From assembly GCF_000935215.1 (NCBI RefSeq), contig NZ_JXXD01000048.1, forward strand, positions 1-64,000: DNA of 64,000 bases, in the 5' to 3' direction. A program made the translations under genes and the position numbers. This document shows positions 35,610 to 45,563 of the stretch, piece after piece. Within the stretch, counting starts at the first letter, position 1; the number at the start of each line of letters is the position of its first letter. The notes below the pieces were generated by a model. That model searched no databases. It saw only the letters and a list, made by a program, of their open reading frames with translations, and was not told where the DNA came from. Source of the stretch: Stutzerimonas stutzeri. GTDB lineage: Bacteria; Pseudomonadota; Gammaproteobacteria; Pseudomonadales; Pseudomonadaceae.

Positions 35610-36629
35610 TCAGGCGCTGTCGCGCATCACCACTTCGAAGCCCACATCGATACAACGCTCGGCAGGCTGCTGACCTCGCATCAGACTCAGCAGCATCTGC
35701 GCCGCCAGCTCGCCGATTTCGCCACGCCGGGTGCGCACGGTGCTCAGCGCCGGATGCATCCAGGCCGCCGCCGGCAGGTCGTTGAAACCGGCAATCGCCA
35801 GCCGCCCCGGCACGTCGAGCCCCAGCTGATGGGCACGAAACAGCGCCCCGAGGGCCAGGTCATCGTTGTTGAAGAACACCGCGTCGATCTGCGAATGCTG
35901 CGCCAGCAGCCGATCCAGCAGCTCCGCACCAAGCCCAATGGACGACAGCTGCGGCGTCAGCAGCTCCAGCGTCGGCTCATAGCGACCGGCCTGGCGCATG
36001 GCCTGACGGTAGCCTTCGGCGCGTTGCAGGGTCCGAGGGTCGAGCTGCGCCGCGGCGAAGGCGACGTGACGGTAGCCGCGCTCAAGCAGCGTGCGGGTCA
36101 TGGCCACGCCGGCTTCCAGCTGCGAGAAGCCTACGCAGTAGTCATCCGGCCGCTCGCTCAGCTCCATCAGGGTAACCATCGGTGCGGTGTAGTTGGCCAG
36201 CACTGCACGGGCGGCATCGCTGCGCTCGAACCCGGTGATCAGCAAGCCGGCCGGCTGATGCGCCAGATAGGCACGCAGCAGTCGTTCGTCCTCTTCGGGG
36301 CGATAGTGGCTGACGCCGATCATCATTTCGTAGCCCGCCGGCATCAGCACGCGCTGGATGGCCTCGACCGTGTCGACGAACACCGCGTTGGACAGCGAAG
36401 GAATGATCACCGCGACCAGATTGGAACGCGAACTGGCCAGGCTGCGCGCCGCCGGATGCGGCACGTAGCCGAGCGCCTTGACCGCCTGCTCGACACGCTC
36501 GCGCAGCGCGTCGGAAACCAGTTCCGGTTGCGACAGCGCGCGGGATGCCGACATCAGCGAGCAGCCGGCGCTACGTGCGACATCCGAGAGGGTTACCCGC
36601 TCGGCAGAGCGGCGTCGGCGTGTGGTCAT
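35610..36629 (-). CDS. gntR: LacI-family repressor, GntR-like
   Basis: LacI-type repressor, 339 aa. The N-terminal helix-turn-helix and hinge read VTLSDVARSAGCSLMSASRALSQP and LGYVPHPAARSLASSRSN; note Leu-Met-Ser in place of the more usual Val-Ser-Thr in the recognition helix. The sugar-binding domain follows. The sequence resembles gluconate repressors, and it is the last gene on the strand of a gluconokinase/TRAP operon, 58 bp after dctP. It probably binds the GntR-like site before the fusion gene (40259-40272), giving induction by gluconate or a related acid; that is inference. Confidence 0.85.
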   Translation of the reverse strand: MTTRRRRSAERVTLSDVARSAGCSLMSASRALSQPELVSDALRERVEQAVKALGYVPHPAARSLASSRSNLVAVIIPSLSNAVFVDTVEAIQRVLMPAGYEMMIGVSHYRPEEDERLLRAYLAHQPAGLLITGFERSDAARAVLANYTAPMVTLMELSERPDDYCVGFSQLEAGVAMTRTLLERGYRHVAFAAAQLDPRTLQRAEGYRQAMRQAGRYEPTLELLTPQLSSIGLGAELLDRLLAQHSQIDAVFFNNDDLALGALFRAHQLGLDVPGRLAIAGFNDLPAAAWMHPALSTVRTRRGEIGELAAQMLLSLMRGQQPAERCIDVGFEVVMRDSA

Positions 36630-36687: not shown

Positions 36688-37704
36688 CTAAGGTGCGGCC
36701 TTTTCCACTTCGGCCTGCACCTGATCGAACAGGTCCTGGCCGACCGCATCGATCACCGTCTGGATCGCCGGCTGCGCCTGTTCGCGCATGCGCTGGATCT
36801 CCTCGGGACTGACCTCGTTGATCTGCATGCCGCGCTCCTTCAGCGCCGCCAACGCCTGACTGGCCTCGCGACGGGTGTCCTCGCGCTCGGCATCGCGTGC
36901 CTTTTCCGCGGCATCCATGAGGATGCCCTGCTCGGTCGCGGACAGCCCGTCCCACCAGCGCTTGGAAACCGTGACGATCCAGGGGCTGTAGACGTGATTG
37001 GTCACGCTCAGGTACTTCTGCACCTCATAGAACTTGGACGAGAGGATGGTGTTGTAGGGGTTTTCCTGGCCGTCGACCGCCTTGGTTTCCAGCGCGGTGA
37101 ACAGCTCGGAGAACGGCAGCGGCACCGCATTGGCGCCCATGCGCTTGAAGGTGTCGATGAAAACCGGATTTGGCATCACGCGCAGCTTGATGCCCTCGAA
37201 GTCCTCGAGCTTCTCGATCGGCCGCGCACTGTTGGTCACGTTACGAAAACCGTTCTCCCAGTACACCAGCCCGACCAGGCCCTTCTCTTCGAGTTTGTCC
37301 ATCACCTGCCTGCCTACCGGGCCGTCCAGTACCTGATCGGCCTGGCGCGGATCGGTGAACAGGAACGGCGTATCCCACACCGCCATCTCCTTGCTGATGC
37401 CGACCAGCGTCGCGGTCGAGCCGACCATCATTTCCTGCGCGCCGCCGATCAGTGCGTTCTGCATCTGGTCGTCCGAGCCGAGGCTGGCCGAACCAAAGGT
37501 ACGCACTTTCAGCTTGCCGTCCGAAGCCTTGGCCACCTCTTCGGCGAGCAGTTTCACTGCCCTGCCCTGGTTACTGTCTTCGTTGAGGCCGTAGCCGAAG
37601 CGGATCATGCGCGGGCGGATGTCGTCGGCGGCGTGGACCTGACCGAGGCCGAGTGTGCTGCCGAGCAATGCGGCAGTCAGGGTGCTGATGATGAGTCGTT
37701 TCAT
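36688..37704 (-). CDS. TRAP transporter substrate-binding protein, DctP family
   Basis: Periplasmic solute-binding protein, 338 aa. The signal peptide is MKRLIISTLTAALLGSTLGLGQVHAADD. The DctP fold shows IRFGYGLNEDSNQGRAVKLLAEEV, and LRVMPNPVFIDTFKRMGANAVPLPF, which holds the Arg that binds the ligand carboxylate. This branch is typical for sugar-acid ligands; with a gluconokinase in the same operon, gluconate or a similar aldonate is the likely ligand. It follows dctM after 60 bp and precedes gntR. Confidence 0.92.
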   Translation of the reverse strand: MKRLIISTLTAALLGSTLGLGQVHAADDIRPRMIRFGYGLNEDSNQGRAVKLLAEEVAKASDGKLKVRTFGSASLGSDDQMQNALIGGAQEMMVGSTATLVGISKEMAVWDTPFLFTDPRQADQVLDGPVGRQVMDKLEEKGLVGLVYWENGFRNVTNSARPIEKLEDFEGIKLRVMPNPVFIDTFKRMGANAVPLPFSELFTALETKAVDGQENPYNTILSSKFYEVQKYLSVTNHVYSPWIVTVSKRWWDGLSATEQGILMDAAEKARDAEREDTRREASQALAALKERGMQINEVSPEEIQRMREQAQPAIQTVIDAVGQDLFDQVQAEVEKAAP

Positions 37705-37764
37705 GGAGCGGTACCTTTTTTGTTGTTGGGCTGTTGGTGTGTCGTTGGGGTTGCACGACCGGCG

Positions 37765-39042
37765 TTACCGCAGCCAGGCCAGGGGTACGGTGATGATCGA
37801 GGGCACGGCTATGAGCAGCCCGACGATCACCAGGTAGACGAGGAAGAACGGCATCACGCCGCGCACCAGGGTTTCCATGCGCAACCGGCCGATGCCGCCG
37901 ACCACGTTGAGCACGGTGCCTACCGGCGGGGTGATCAGCCCGATGGAACCGATCAGCACGAACATCACGCCGAAATACACCGGATCGATGCCGGCCTTGA
38001 TCGCGATCGGCGCCAGCACCGGACCGAGGATCAGAATGGTCGGGGTCAGGTCCAGCACCATGCCGACGGCGATCATCAGCAGCATGATGGCGACCATCAG
38101 CAGCTTGGGGTCCTGCGCCAGCGGACCGAGCATCGCCGCGATCTCGTCGGGCAGCTGGGCCAGGGTGATCATGTACGCCGATACCGTCGCCGCGGCGCAG
38201 AGAAACATCACCGACGCCGTGGTGCGGCTGGCACGCGTGAGCACCTCGACCAGCCCGGCCCAGGTCAGTTCGCGATACAGCAGGGTCGACACCGCCAGCG
38301 CGTAGACGGCGGCGACCACCGCCGCTTCGGTCGGGGTGAACAGGCCGCCACGCAGCCCGCCAACGATGATCACCGGCAGCATCAGCGCGGCGGCGCCGTC
38401 GACCAGCACGCGACGGCGTTCGGCCGCTCTGGCCTTTTCCTGTTTCGGTTCATCGATCCGCCGGGCGATCAGCGTCCAGGCGACGATCAGGCCCATGCCC
38501 ATGATCAGCCCCGGCACCATGCCGGCGAGAAACAGCTGGCTGATCGACGTGCCGGTCACCACGCCGTAGATCACGAACGGCATCGACGGCGGAATGATCG
38601 GCGCGATAATCCCGCCCGCCGCCACCAGGCCCGACGACGAACTCAACGGGTAGCCGCGCTCGCGCATCATCGGCAGCAGCAGCGTCGCCAGCGCGGCGGT
38701 ATCGGCCAACGCCGAGCCGGACATGCTGGCCAGCAGCACCGAAGCGGCAATCGCCACGTAACCCAGGCCGCCACGCTTGTGACCGAAATAGGCCTGCGCC
38801 ATGGCGATGATGCGCCGCGAGATGCCTCCGGCATTCATCAGTTCGCCAGCAAGGATGAAGAACGGCACCGCCAGCAGCGGGAAGCTGTCAGCGCCGGCCT
38901 GAAGATTCTGAGCCAGCAGCTGCACGTCCCAGAAATCCAGGTACCACATCAGCACCGAGCCGGTGAGCAGCAGCGCGAAGGCGATGGGCATGCCAAGGGT
39001 CATGAAGCCCAGCAGCGATGAAAGGAAGACGACGACGGTCAT
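37765..39042 (-). CDS. TRAP transporter large permease, DctM family
   Basis: Large membrane subunit, 425 aa with about 12 helices, that carries out Na+-coupled uptake of the DctP-bound acid. Conserved family stretches include LLTGSVLMWYLDFWD near the N-terminus, AVPFFILAGELMNAGGISRR, SGSALADTAALATLLLPMM and IIAPIIPPSMPFVIYG. It normally pairs with a separate DctQ subunit; here DctQ is the C-terminal half of the preceding gene product, whose stop is 51 bp upstream. DctM and DctP follow the fusion gene in one operon. Confidence 0.93.
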   Translation of the reverse strand: MTVVVFLSSLLGFMTLGMPIAFALLLTGSVLMWYLDFWDVQLLAQNLQAGADSFPLLAVPFFILAGELMNAGGISRRIIAMAQAYFGHKRGGLGYVAIAASVLLASMSGSALADTAALATLLLPMMRERGYPLSSSSGLVAAGGIIAPIIPPSMPFVIYGVVTGTSISQLFLAGMVPGLIMGMGLIVAWTLIARRIDEPKQEKARAAERRRVLVDGAAALMLPVIIVGGLRGGLFTPTEAAVVAAVYALAVSTLLYRELTWAGLVEVLTRASRTTASVMFLCAAATVSAYMITLAQLPDEIAAMLGPLAQDPKLLMVAIMLLMIAVGMVLDLTPTILILGPVLAPIAIKAGIDPVYFGVMFVLIGSIGLITPPVGTVLNVVGGIGRLRMETLVRGVMPFFLVYLVIVGLLIAVPSIITVPLAWLR

Positions 39043-39093
39043 ACAAGGTCCTCGGTTGGGCAGTGCCCGTATTGTTCTGAATGCGGCGTCGCT

Positions 39094-40224
39094 TCAGTCC
39101 GCGGTGACATTCGCAGCGGCGGTGGCCGATGGCTGATCACGCCGCCAGACATTGACCAGCTGCACCAGCGCCAATACCGCCAGCGCGACCATGCTGGCGG
39201 CCACGGGCAACATCGCCAGGCCCAGCGGATACCCGACTACCGGGCTGTTGATGGTCCAGCCGAACTGCATCTGGTTCCAGCCGCCCCAGGCCGCCAGGCA
39301 GCTCGCAGCTGCCACCAGCAGCCAGCTGAGGGAGTCGACGACGCGGCGGAACAGCCGCGGGAAGCGGTCGCGCAGCATGGAAAAGCTCATCAGCTCGCCG
39401 CGGCGCATGCTCGAAGCGACACCGACGAACACCAGCCAGACGAACGCCAGCCGCGACAGCTCCTCAGCGCCGGTCCAGCCAGTGCCGAAGGCATAGCGCA
39501 GCACCACGCTGGAAAACACCACGATGACCATGAAGGCCATCAACGCGGCCATCAGCCAGTCGGTCAGGCGGTCGAAGTGCTGGGCGACCGTGCCGCTGTA
39601 GATCGGCTCGTTGGTCAAAGGTGGCGCCGTGGTAGCGCTATCAAACGGACGCGAGGAAAGATCGACCCGGGTTTCAATAAGCTCATCCAGACCGGCGCCC
39701 TGCATCCAATCGACGATGTGGCGCAGAACGTCTTCGCGGGGCTGGCTGGCATCCACGGTCAATACGCCGGGTTCGCCCTCGGGTGATTCGAGGGTGGCGA
39801 ACTGGCTGTCGACCAGGGAAATAGGCATGAAATGTCCCGGCCTGCCGCCGACGCGCTGCACGGCGGTTTCGTAATCGATGGCTAGATGGGCGAAACGCAG
39901 CTCCGGAACCGCACTGCGCAGCAACTCCCGGTAGCTGCGCTTGAGCGCCGAGCAAGCCAGCACGAAGCCGCTGCCTGCCGCTAAAGTGCGCTGCATTTCA
40001 GCGATCAGCGCGTGCAGCCACTCCACGCGGTCGGCATCGGACAGCGGCGTGCCGGCACGCATGCGCGCCACGTTCTCTGCCGGGTGAAAGTTGTCCGCTT
40101 CGATGTGCGGCAGGCCGAGCGCGTCGGCTACGGCGTGGCTGGTCTCGGTCTTGCCGGAACCGCTGACGCCCATGACGACCAGCACCGGAAGCGCGGAAGC
40201 CTTTGAGGTATGCACTGAAGGCAT
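39094..40224 (-). CDS. Gluconokinase fused to TRAP small permease subunit (GntK-DctQ)
   Basis: One continuous 376-aa frame with two proteins in it. Residues 14-178 are a gluconokinase of the GntK family: P-loop GVSGSGKTE (19-27), then IEADNFHPAENVARMRAGTPLSDADR, LACSALKRSYRELLR and GHFMPISLVDSQF. Residues 179-214 form a polar linker. Residues 217-365 are a DctQ-type four-helix subunit: FDRLTDWLMAALMAFMV, VLRYAFGTGWTGAEELSRLAFVWLVFVG and a final helix near 335-358. No stop or shift interrupts it. It is the first gene of the operon with dctM, dctP and gntR. The kinase would sit at the cytoplasmic face of the transporter, so the acid could be phosphorylated on entry. A start at 40224 follows a GntR-like operator. 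Confidence 0.92.
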   Translation of the reverse strand: MPSVHTSKASALPVLVVMGVSGSGKTETSHAVADALGLPHIEADNFHPAENVARMRAGTPLSDADRVEWLHALIAEMQRTLAAGSGFVLACSALKRSYRELLRSAVPELRFAHLAIDYETAVQRVGGRPGHFMPISLVDSQFATLESPEGEPGVLTVDASQPREDVLRHIVDWMQGAGLDELIETRVDLSSRPFDSATTAPPLTNEPIYSGTVAQHFDRLTDWLMAALMAFMVIVVFSSVVLRYAFGTGWTGAEELSRLAFVWLVFVGVASSMRRGELMSFSMLRDRFPRLFRRVVDSLSWLLVAAASCLAAWGGWNQMQFGWTINSPVVGYPLGLAMLPVAASMVALAVLALVQLVNVWRRDQPSATAAANVTAD

Positions 40225-40258: not shown

Positions 40259-40272
40259 TGTTAGCGCTATCA
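40259..40272. promoter_or_regulatory. Candidate GntR operator
   Basis: TGTTAGCGCTATCA is a near-palindrome around AGCGCT, 35 bp before the gntK-dctQ ATG. It resembles the ATGTTA-centred operators known for LacI-type gluconate repressors. The gntR gene ends this operon, so autoregulation is likely. Confidence 0.55.
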
Positions 40273-42884: not shown

Positions 42885-44129
42885 ATGCGGGTAGCAGTCA
42901 TCGGCGCAGGCGTCATCGGGCTTGCCACGGCCTATTCATTGGTGCGCCAGGGGCACAGCGTGGAGCTGATCGAACGGCGCGACGATGTTGCCCTGGAAAC
43001 CAGCTTCGCCAATGGCGGGCAGCTCAGCTATCGCTACGTTTCGCCCCTGGCCGATGCCGGCGTGCCGCTGCAGGCGATTGGCTGGATGCTGCGCGGAGCC
43101 GATGCCCCGTTGCGTTTCCGACCGCAGGCGAGCCTGCATCAGTGGCGCTGGTGCCTGCAGTTCCTGCTGGCATGCCGGCGCTCGGTCAATCGGCGCAACG
43201 CGGCTCATCTGCTGCGTCTGGCCCTGCACAGTCAGCAGATCCTGCACAGCTGGCGCGAGCAGGACCGGCTGGACGGCTTCGCCTGGCGCGCCAACGGCAA
43301 GCTGGTGATCTATCGCGATCAACACAGCCTGCACAAAGGCGCGGCGGCCATCGACGACGATTCCGGGCAGCGGCTGCTGGACGCCGCGCAATGCGTCGAC
43401 GTCGAGCCGGCGCTGGCGCCGTTGGCGGCATCGCTGCACGGCGGCATCTATTCGCCCGGCGACGAGGTTGCCGACTGCCATCTGTTCTGCACCGAACTGC
43501 TGCGGCGACTGCGGGCATCACCTGCGTTTCATCTGCATACCGGCCAATCGGTGAGCGCATTGCGCAGCGAAGGCAAGCGCGTCCGCGCGTTCGTGCTCGG
43601 GCGCGATGAAATCGCCGTCGACCATCTGGTAGTCGCGGCCGGCACCGGCAGCGTCGGGCTGCTTCGGCCACTGGGTATCGACCTGCCGATTTACCCGCTC
43701 AAGGGCTACAGCCTGACCGTTGGGCTGGCCGACCAGAACCGCGTGCCGCAAACCAACGTCACCGACTACGACAACAAGGTCGTCTACGCCCGCCTCGATG
43801 ACCAGCTGCGCGTCGCGGCGATGGTGGATATCGCCGGCTGGGACGCCGGGCTCGACCAGCAGCGCATCGCCACCCTGCAACGTCTGGCTCGTGCGACCTT
43901 CCCCGGCGCCGGCGACTACCAACGCGCGCGGCAATGGGCGGGGCTGCGCCCGGCGACGCCCCAGGGCACGCCTCTGCTTGGCCGCAGCGGCTTCGACAAT
44001 CTCTGGCTCAACGTCGGCCACGGCAGCCTCGGTTTCACCCTGGCCTGTGGCAGCGCCGACCTGCTCACCAGCGTAATCGGCGGATCGCCACCCGCTGTTT
44101 CTCTGGACGGCTTGAGCCTGCCCGCCTGA
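42885..44129 (+). CDS. D-amino acid dehydrogenase-like FAD oxidoreductase
   Basis: FAD-dependent DAO-family enzyme, 414 aa, close to DadA: it would oxidise a D-amino acid to the imino acid and pass electrons to the respiratory chain at the inner membrane. The N-terminal dinucleotide fold is VAVIGAGVIGLATAYSLVRQG with ELIERR, then ETSFANGGQLSYRYVSPLAD as in DadA, and near the C-terminus WAGLRPATPQGTPLLGRSGFDNLWLNVGHGSLGFTLA, the FAD-binding end motif. GGAGGAG lies 8 bp before the ATG. It is followed by a broken ridA and a TAXI binding protein. The substrate may be any D-amino acid or a related amine. Confidence 0.9.
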   Translation: MRVAVIGAGVIGLATAYSLVRQGHSVELIERRDDVALETSFANGGQLSYRYVSPLADAGVPLQAIGWMLRGADAPLRFRPQASLHQWRWCLQFLLACRRSVNRRNAAHLLRLALHSQQILHSWREQDRLDGFAWRANGKLVIYRDQHSLHKGAAAIDDDSGQRLLDAAQCVDVEPALAPLAASLHGGIYSPGDEVADCHLFCTELLRRLRASPAFHLHTGQSVSALRSEGKRVRAFVLGRDEIAVDHLVVAAGTGSVGLLRPLGIDLPIYPLKGYSLTVGLADQNRVPQTNVTDYDNKVVYARLDDQLRVAAMVDIAGWDAGLDQQRIATLQRLARATFPGAGDYQRARQWAGLRPATPQGTPLLGRSGFDNLWLNVGHGSLGFTLACGSADLLTSVIGGSPPAVSLDGLSLPA

Positions 44130-44150
44130 CCACTCAAAGAGGAAACCGAT

Positions 44151-44505
44151 ATGACCTTGCAACGCATCGTGAGCAATCCACGCATGTCCGCCGCAGTCGT
44201 TCATGCAGACGTTGTGTTCCTCGCCGGCCAGGTCCCGGACGACCGCGGCCTGGGTGCCGCCGGGACAGACCCGCGAGGTGCTGGCGAAGATCGACCGGTT
44301 GCTGGCTGCCGCTGGCTCTAGTCGCGAGCACCTGCTCAGCGCGCAGATCTGGCTGAAGGACATCAATGCCGACTTCGCCGCCATGAACGAGGTATGGATC
44401 GACTGGCTGCCAGCAGGCTGCGCACCGGCGCGGGCGACGGTGCAGGCGCGTCTGGCCTCACCCGAGGTGCTGGTCGAGATCATGGTGATCGCCGCGCGCA
44501 CCTGA
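44151..44505 (+). pseudogene. ridA: RidA-family enamine/imine deaminase, frameshifted
   Basis: The reading frame starts well (ATG 44151 after AGAGGAAACC) and gives [20 protein letters not shown] and [11 protein letters not shown], normal for the RidA family. Near 44262-44265 the frame is lost: the run GGGACAG holds one base too many (or two too few). The first frame then stops near 44330, while the second frame continues with [29 protein letters not shown] and a normal family C-terminus ending at 44505. Restoring one base gives a full protein of about 117 aa with the QTREVLAKI join. RidA hydrolyses reactive imines, the expected product of the preceding dehydrogenase. It may be a real mutation or a sequencing error. 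Confidence 0.85.
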
Positions 44506-44582
44506 CCACAGCGGTCTATCGTTCCTGCGCCGGCGACACCGCAGTGCAACTACCCAAAATACGAACAAAAGAGGGAACCGCA

Positions 44583-45563
44583 ATGAACCATCAGATCCGT
44601 ACCGGCCTGCTGGGCATCACCCTGGCCGGCGCACTCGCCGGCGCTTTGGCAAGCACCAGCGTGCTGGCGCAGGAGCGCTTCGTCACCATCGGCACCGGAG
44701 GGCAGACCGGCGTGTATTACACCGCCGGCCAGTCGGTGTGCCGCTTCCTCAATCGTGTCGAGGTGAAGCCCGCCATCAAATGCAACGCACCCTCGACCGC
44801 GGGCAGCGTGACCAACATCGTGTCGTTGCACAAAGGCGAGTACGACTTCGGCTTCATCCAGTCCGACCATCAGCACAAGGCGCTGCAGGGCCTGGCGCCC
44901 TTCGACAAGGAAGGCGCGGTCGAACTGCGCGCAGTGTTCTCATTGCAGTCGGAGATTCTCACCGTGGTCGTTCGCAACGACAGCGGCATCACCGATCTGG
45001 CCGGGCTCGAAGGCAAGCGGGTAAACATCGGCGTGCCCGGCTCGGGCAGTCGCGACACCTTCGAGGAAGTCATGCAGGCCAAGGGCTGGACGAATGCCAG
45101 CTTCGCCCTGGCCGCGGAACTCAAACCGGCGGAAATGGCTTCCGCCTTGGGTGACAACAACCTTGACGCCATCACCTATGTAGTCGGCCATCCGAGCGGT
45201 GCGATCCAGGAAGCCTTGACCAATGTAAAGGCCAGGATCATTTCGGTGCAGGGCGCAGAGATCGACAGCCTGCTGGCCAAGGCCGATTACTACAGCGCAG
45301 TGGAAATCCCCGCCGGACTCTACCCGGGCGTGGACGGCGCCATTCCGTCGATCGGCGGCAAGGCCGTGCTGGCGACCACCAGCAAGACCGACCCGGAGGT
45401 CGTCTACCAGCTGGTCAAGTCGGTGTTCGACAACCTCGACAGGTTCAAGCGCCTGCATCCGGCCTTTGCCGACCTCAAGGCCGAAGACATGATTCGCGTC
45501 GGCCTGACTGCGCCGCTGCACGAGGGCGCCGAGCGCTATTACAAGGAGAAGGGTTGGCTGTAG
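44583..45563 (+). CDS. TAXI-family TRAP transporter solute-binding protein
   Basis: Periplasmic binding protein of the TAXI branch, 326 aa. The signal peptide runs to ASTSVLAQ. The family blocks RFVTIGTGGQTGVYYTAGQSVCRFLNR, FIQSDHQHKAL and GLEGKRVNIGVPGSGSRDTFEEVM are clear. TAXI proteins feed a fused DctQM permease; none is in the window, so this is an orphan that must use a permease elsewhere. It follows the D-amino acid dehydrogenase and ridA on the same strand (77-bp gap), which suggests uptake of an amino acid or related acid. Confidence 0.9.
   Translation: MNHQIRTGLLGITLAGALAGALASTSVLAQERFVTIGTGGQTGVYYTAGQSVCRFLNRVEVKPAIKCNAPSTAGSVTNIVSLHKGEYDFGFIQSDHQHKALQGLAPFDKEGAVELRAVFSLQSEILTVVVRNDSGITDLAGLEGKRVNIGVPGSGSRDTFEEVMQAKGWTNASFALAAELKPAEMASALGDNNLDAITYVVGHPSGAIQEALTNVKARIISVQGAEIDSLLAKADYYSAVEIPAGLYPGVDGAIPSIGGKAVLATTSKTDPEVVYQLVKSVFDNLDRFKRLHPAFADLKAEDMIRVGLTAPLHEGAERYYKEKGWL

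Follow-up and report, generated by a model that had tools for sequence, protein, structure and literature searches.

We report that in Stutzerimonas stutzeri a complete gluconokinase and a complete small permease subunit (DctQ) of a TRAP transporter are encoded by one uninterrupted frame, that the fusion recurs through the genus and in part of the family, and that the DNA encoding the interdomain linker carries a conserved sequence resembling an operator of the gluconate repressor GntR. In the account that we favor, to which we assign a probability of roughly 0.7, the product would be a membrane-tethered gluconokinase that doubles as the DctQ subunit of a TRAP importer for gluconate (a C6 sugar acid), GntR would bind the site within the linker, and the linker would descend from a spacer between two genes. 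The features lie in the stretch of DNA that was analysed (64 kb, hereafter the window) as follows, with the grounds for each in brackets.

40262–40271, minus strand: O1, GntR-operator-like site GATAGCGCTA upstream of the fusion gene (conservation)
39094–40224, minus strand: gntK-dctQ fusion gene, 376 aa (open reading frame, profile matches and spread among genomes)
39703–40182, minus strand: GntK/IdnK-type gluconokinase domain, residues 15–174 (TIGR01313; folds 3t61, 4eun and 1ko5)
40147–40170, minus strand: P-loop GVSGSGKT, residues 19–26 (sequence; conserved in the alignment)
39592–39693, minus strand: linker, residues 178–211 (predicted disorder; fast evolution except in the operator codons and PIY)
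39631–39644, minus strand: O2, GntR-operator-like site TTGATAGCGCTACC in the linker coding DNA, D195, S196 and A197 (conservation; footprints in PMC12195362)
39139–39591, minus strand: DctQ small TRAP permease domain, residues 212–362, four helices (PF04290, model and charges)
37765–39042, minus strand: DctM large TRAP permease (PF06808, 397.6 bits; TIGR00786, 438.9 bits)
36688–37704, minus strand: DctP solute-binding protein (PF03480; closest solved relative 7bbr, E 5.7e-102)
35610–36629, minus strand: GntR, LacI-family gluconate repressor (NF052440, 486.5 bits, cut-off 400)

Results

The fusion gene is read without an internal stop, from the minus strand, which the initial annotation left unstated. 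Its first part matches the gluconokinase model TIGR01313 over residues 15–174 at 173.8 bits, passing the curated cut-off of 113.75, and its second part matches Pfam DctQ (PF04290) over residues 232–362 at 91.8 bits (cut-off 28.3), which bears out the initial annotation that a full kinase and a full DctQ share a single frame. The P-loop that had been pointed out there is present at residues 19–26, and its residues G19, V20, S21, G22, G24 and K25 are invariant in a 20-row alignment. The fold matches for the kinase part are the solved gluconate kinases 3t61, 4eun and 1ko5, which rules out another fold for it, and the domain is predicted to catalyse the phosphorylation of gluconate. An AlphaFold2 model of the fusion from the same 20-row alignment (mean pLDDT 67.6) predicts the kinase well, a disordered linker at about 178–211, and, in a membrane part of moderate certainty, helices at 212–246, 251–274, 290–324 and 331–361, the number claimed earlier; with a pLDDT below 50 at residues 178–210 of the linker, the placement of the kinase relative to the membrane part is not interpretable. 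DctQ was absent among the 50 fold matches listed for the model, and the DctQ assignment rests on sequence and on the helices of this moderately confident model. Because the loop between helices 2 and 3 (seven lysine and arginine residues) and the stretch after helix 4 are basic, the positive-inside rule would put the kinase end in the cytoplasm, where it had been placed before; PMC5812351 agrees in calling the C-terminal part of DctQ cytoplasmic. Next to the first helix, the linker residues PIY (207–209; 39598–39606) are nearly constant in the distinct fused genes (P in 40 of 41, I and Y in all 41), with varying codons for P and Y, so that they look conserved as protein. One locus (L044) has a linker lengthened by RGGQ repeats.

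Downstream, on the same strand and in this order, follow DctM, DctP and GntR, so that DctP, DctQ and DctM, each over its cut-off (PF03480, PF04290 and PF06808), belong to one operon. The earlier statement that DctM, DctP and a repressor share the operon therefore stands. The repressor is the LacI-family GntR (NCBIfam NF052440) and lies outside the winged-helix family that is also named GntR. In the genome of the window the fusion is the only GntK match in a TIGR01313 profile search, by which a stand-alone kinase doing the work from elsewhere in that genome was rejected, and a GntP permease gave no match there. As for the substrate, DctP resembles a C6-sugar-acid binding protein in overall sequence, its closest relative among solved chains being 7bbr. 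We take 7bbr to be CxaP of the Advenella mimigardefordensis sugar-acid TRAP transporter CxaPQM. PMC11668362 describes 7BBR with bound 2-keto-3-deoxy-D-gluconate, and PMC12076931 gives xylonate, fuconate, galactonate and gluconate as CxaP substrates; CxaPQM is thus akin to the present system in the nearness of DctP to 7bbr, and its substrates include gluconate. The substrate here is probably gluconate, with the reservation that the closest binding protein of solved structure accepts several sugar acids. The best-scoring specific models are those of the 2,3-diketo-L-gulonate TRAP transporter YiaMNO, and this assignment was rejected with both subunits below cut-off (YiaN, NF011634, 524.7 against 800 bits; YiaM, NF007374, 60 against 260 bits). 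We know of no fused kinase in YiaMNO.

Several other elements were seen in and around the operon. The spacer that separates dctM from the fusion gene (39043–39093, minus strand) contains, in 39 of 41 operons, a small inverted repeat GGGC-N3/4-GCCC a short way ahead of dctM. The sequence AANAANAA, presumably a Hfq/Crc-type motif, occurs in that spacer in 15 of the 41 against 0.2 expected from shuffles, and is absent in the window. Next to the operon, at 42885–45563, lie a DAO-type FAD oxidoreductase (profile match) and, by the appearance of their sequences, a small RidA-like frame and a frame resembling TRAP binding proteins of the TAXI type. Antisense to dctM and dctP, on the plus strand (36994–39021), runs an open frame of 675 codons, probably a by-product of high G+C content.

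The fusion is present in one open frame in 45 of 56 genomes of the genus, as one full-length match in 41 and with a longer in-frame linker in four (two read as sequence and two judged from coordinates); in one further genome (G047) a frameshift within the linker separates the two halves, and ten genomes are without the fusion. It is also found in 27 of 342 other genomes of the family. Sequencing error or a chance open frame is ruled out by this recurrence, and the missed stop codon or frameshift that had been named as a ground for rejecting the fusion fails for the same reason. Carriers include S. stutzeri, S. kunmingensis, S. chloritidismutans and S. xanthomarina, as well as Pseudomonas oligotrophica, P. 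duriflava, P. segetis, P. aestuarii and P. khazarica, and all 34 loci of the named-carrier set are fused. Beyond the window and a second genome of the same genus (G055), no fusion was found in samples of the order (293 genomes, E up to 1e-40), class (369 genomes, E up to 1e-30) or phylum (398 genomes, E up to 1e-30), samples that overlap one another and the family and that rarer or more diverged fusions could escape; none was found in 200 genomes of another family (f109; E up to 1e-35). The combination of domains appears to be new as far as the open-access literature search goes, in which no gluconokinase-DctQ fusion came up in the titles and abstract openings of the best-ranked matches; the parts themselves are of known kinds. 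The split gene of G047 (locus L089, 5139–6265) is interrupted just after O2, where a TTG overlaps the stop, and may represent either a real fission or an assembly error. At least 15 genomes of the genus have a second, stand-alone GntK match of 34–42% identity besides the fusion (among them G050, G041, G025, G048, G040, G023, G055, G002, G013, G014, G046, G036, G038, G045 and G049). A mutant-fitness resource may cover the fusion gene in a Pseudomonas stutzeri strain.

From 58 fused genes that were read, we retained 41 distinct ones, differing mutually by at least 5% of nucleotides. Median dN/dS over pairs with dS of 0.2–0.8 (138 of 820; 137 for the linker) was 0.177 for the kinase, 0.180 for DctQ and 0.439 for the linker, and came out undefined for the last 14 residues. 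The kinase and DctQ are thus under similar purifying selection, and both are kept.

Within the window, TAGCGCTA occurs twice, upstream of the fusion gene at 40262–40269 and in the linker at 39633–39640. The upstream copy is present in all 41 distinct fused genes. In the linker, TAGCGCTA is found in 36 of the 41, TGATAGCGCTA in 35 and the exact TTGATAGCGCTAAC in 27; L034 retains the core with one flanking base changed, and L107, L112, L115 and L125 are without the site, two of them (L112 and L115) having no gntR found in the 11-kb stretch examined. The spacing of O1 and O2 in the 36 genes is 629–651 bp, a variation of 22 bp in which no helical-phase pattern was seen by eye. The published GntR operator consensus is AC-N1-AAG-N1-TAGCGCT in P. 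aeruginosa (PMC5902321) and AG-N2-AGCGCT-N-TCT in P. plecoglossicida (PMC12195362); O1 and O2, both of which read GATAGCGCTA in the window, agree with these in the AGCGCT core and differ from both in the outer bases. We consider TAGCGCTA, from this likeness, to correspond to the core of the GntR operator known from Pseudomonas, and O2 to be a candidate for GntR binding. In the whole genome, GATAGCGCTA has four copies, two of them at the operon, against 13 for the pattern read backwards; because the reversed control is the commoner, rarity proves nothing here, and with no genome-wide enrichment the case for an operator rests on conservation and position. The two further exact copies (G000:C76:11645 and G000:C363:17048) have no gluconate gene nearby that we recognised by eye. 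A consensus promoter scan gave, as its only match near the gene on the coding strand, one that overlaps O1 (40264–40236), in a stretch with three matches against 0.7 expected. An operator kept inside an interdomain linker is new as far as the open-access literature search goes; the initial annotation mentioned neither the operator-like linker site nor the unfused relatives described below.

The manner in which O2 is conserved bears on whether DNA or protein is the object of selection. Ser-Ala-Asn/Thr is present in the linker of 37 of the 41 genes and is preceded by Asp in 36, as would be expected if these residues were kept for the protein, as a hinge, a binding motif or a cleavage motif, and the match to an operator were coincidental. 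However, the codons are fixed as well, the four residues being written GAT AGC GCT A(A/C)C in most genes. Ala197 is GCT in 37 of the 38 genes with Ala at that position, while GCT accounts for 12% of all their Ala codons, which makes its column the most biased of 200 codon columns tested (we use only this rank, as the p-values treat related genes as independent); Ser196 is AGC in 37 of 37 and Asp195 GAT in 37 of 39. The residue before the Asp varies, yet where it is F, L, I or V (33 genes) every codon ends in TT, so that at least 33 of 41 genes share these two bases. Elsewhere the linker varies in length and sequence while O2 is fixed at synonymous sites, and the ANVTAD sequence at the DctQ end, present in that or a close form in 30 of 41 genes, by contrast uses varying codons. 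With the same palindrome standing upstream in every gene and no copies in the window other than these two, selection for a protein motif is in our estimation very improbable; O2 is conserved as DNA, because a protein motif would not fix synonymous bases.

The kinase and DctQ had been presumed to be separate proteins as a rule. Outside the family, in operons where both are neighbours, the kinase frame ends ahead of dctQ in all 20 that were inspected, a set that is not a random sample, its loci having been chosen by kinase score and partly for a dctQ already seen (25 loci, 24 from family f109 and one from f70, less five without dctQ beside the kinase). Four matches among the 200 f109 genomes span both domains with one stop codon between. 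Among 15 distinct unfused operons the dctQ start overlaps the kinase stop as ATGA in ten, follows a gap of 15–39 nt in four and is unclear in one. A GntR-like site lies upstream of gntK in 19 of the 20 operons and between gntK and dctQ in none. Comamonas endophytica carries a similar operon on plasmid NZ_CP106882.1, with a LacI regulator, a gluconokinase, a small permease 15 nt later, a large permease, a binding protein, an SDR oxidoreductase and edd, and with two GntR-like sites upstream; because this unfused operon continues into edd, it supports a sugar-acid route into the Entner-Doudoroff pathway.

A different arrangement is seen in the unfused gntK-gntP loci of Pseudomonadaceae (25 loci with the best kinase scores, of which L131 is without GntP and stands outside the 24 counted here). 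In 19 of 24, the operator pattern stands behind the kinase stop and ahead of gntP, at 4–29 nt from the stop in 18 and at 135 nt in one. Counted from where the kinase match begins, these sites fall mostly at 526–597 nt and O2 at 539–593 nt, a rough agreement. In P. plecoglossicida, gntP lies 100 bp downstream of gntK, and one of the GntR footprints falls in this gap (PMC12195362). Because the operator follows the kinase stop in gntK-gntP loci and is only upstream in the unfused TRAP operons, the linker most plausibly represents what was once a spacer between kinase and transporter genes, its stop codon lost and its operator preserved.

We infer this origin of O2 from position and sequence, the trees giving no tie. 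These were quick searches with SH-aLRT support only, in which many forks are open and, in the GntR tree, L151 drew a long-branch warning. In the kinase tree (94 rows), all 41 fused kinases join three stand-alone ones (SH-aLRT 98), and the tree does not discriminate between the gntK-gntP kinases of Pseudomonas and the TRAP-linked ones of f109 as their nearest relatives; in the GntR tree (83 rows), the 38 repressors of fused operons form one group (SH-aLRT 99). The three stand-alone kinases (L086, L087 and L088, in genomes of the genus) are nested inside the fused ones, with 64–67% identity and an intact P-loop, and are found at the corresponding position, flanked by PpiC/AFG1 and LysR; none of the three 11-kb stretches contains dctQMP, gntR or either operator. 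The loss of O1 and O2 there is what would be expected if the sites serve GntR. Because three relatives keep the kinase without adjacent dctQMP, the kinase can exist without the tether.

Discussion

TRAP carriers are ion-driven, and no feature seen in the present system ties transport to the kinase. We propose that DctP would catch gluconate in the periplasm, that DctQM would import it together with an ion, and that the kinase, which the disordered linker would keep at the cytoplasmic face, would convert it to 6-phosphogluconate. The kinase is likely to be tethered at the carrier, and imported acid might be captured faster as a consequence. The fusion would most simply have arisen once in Pseudomonadaceae, when an adjoining kinase gene and transporter gene were joined by read-through of an operator-bearing spacer like the present gntK-gntP spacer of Pseudomonas, the spacer becoming a linker and its operator function being retained. 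GntR would then bind O1 before the gene and O2 within it, about 640 bp apart, and could repress the operon through a loop or a roadblock until released by gluconate or 6-phosphogluconate, both of which are given as effectors in PMC5902321.

Alternatively, one could envision O2 as the operator of a promoter inside the linker, from which dctQMP would also be transcribed alone and an unfused DctQ made from an internal start, with the fusion as one product of two. The promoter region of gntP is indeed bound by GntR in both P. aeruginosa (PMC5902321) and P. plecoglossicida (PMC12195362), TTG at Leu203 is an in-frame start candidate in 11 of the 41 fused genes, and the split gene of L089 would start there. 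However, an equal number, 11 of 41, have no in-frame ATG, GTG or TTG in the interval of residues 178–216, a start codon downstream of O2 is missing in 17 of the 36 genes that carry the site, and a Shine-Dalgarno-like stretch accompanies only two of the 11 TTG candidates; because start codons and such stretches are so often missing, a conserved internal start of DctQ is unlikely. The promoter scan was moreover empty in the window's linker, and even for P. plecoglossicida the authors of PMC12195362 suggest that gntP may be co-transcribed with gntK, with no promoter in the gap. We thus regard an internal promoter governed by O2 as improbable.

It is possible, though we think it unlikely, that the fusion is neutral, in that a stop codon was lost, the halves work as if apart and the tether brings no benefit; O2 may be an operator under this explanation too. 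It would suit the existence of unfused gntK-dctQMP operons elsewhere (the 20 inspected and that of Comamonas), the three relatives that keep the kinase alone and the one gene that has split. Against it, 72 of 398 genomes of the family retain an open frame despite a fast-evolving linker, and a single genome shows a split among the 46 of the genus that have both halves. At the other extreme, the coupling could be far tighter than a membrane-tethered kinase beside its carrier. Gluconokinase is a dimer in E. coli. Such a dimer might pair two carriers, with gluconate handed from DctQM to the kinase before it reaches the cytoplasm, uptake dependent on phosphorylation in a secondary-transporter analogue of group translocation, and GntR, released by 6-phosphogluconate, acting through the linker DNA to control transcription within the gene itself; we hold this combination to be quite doubtful.

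The tethered importer that we favor can be set against several known systems. The unfused operons of Comamonas, f109 and f70 share with it the order gntK-dctQ-dctM-dctP, a LacI-family regulator and upstream GntR-like sites, and differ in having separate proteins, a divergent gntR and no operator between gntK and dctQ. In the gntR/gntK-gntP locus of Pseudomonas, too, a transporter gene comes next to the kinase gene on its downstream side, a GntR site stands behind the kinase gene and the GntR is of the LacI family, but its transporter is a GntP permease rather than a TRAP carrier, its kinase is unfused and its site is non-coding. Intragenic operators are known, as in lac O2 within lacZ and the internal gal operator within galE, and these likewise combine a LacI-family repressor with a second site inside coding sequence; here, however, the site is coding DNA of an interdomain linker. 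In group translocation by the PTS, of which the initial annotation was reminded, the substrate is phosphorylated in the course of transport, which depends on the phosphoryl donor; the fusion joins a separate P-loop kinase domain to a TRAP carrier, with nothing to indicate coupling in the same step.

The fusion provides a natural setting in which to test whether nutrient capture improves when a metabolic kinase is tied to a secondary carrier, and the unfused, split and kinase-only relatives are ready comparisons. The findings suggest that genes can fuse across regulatory DNA without losing regulation, the operator being kept by selection at the level of DNA and tolerated in the protein as a disordered linker. 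Fusion across an operator-bearing spacer would thus be a simple and testable route to new multi-domain proteins.
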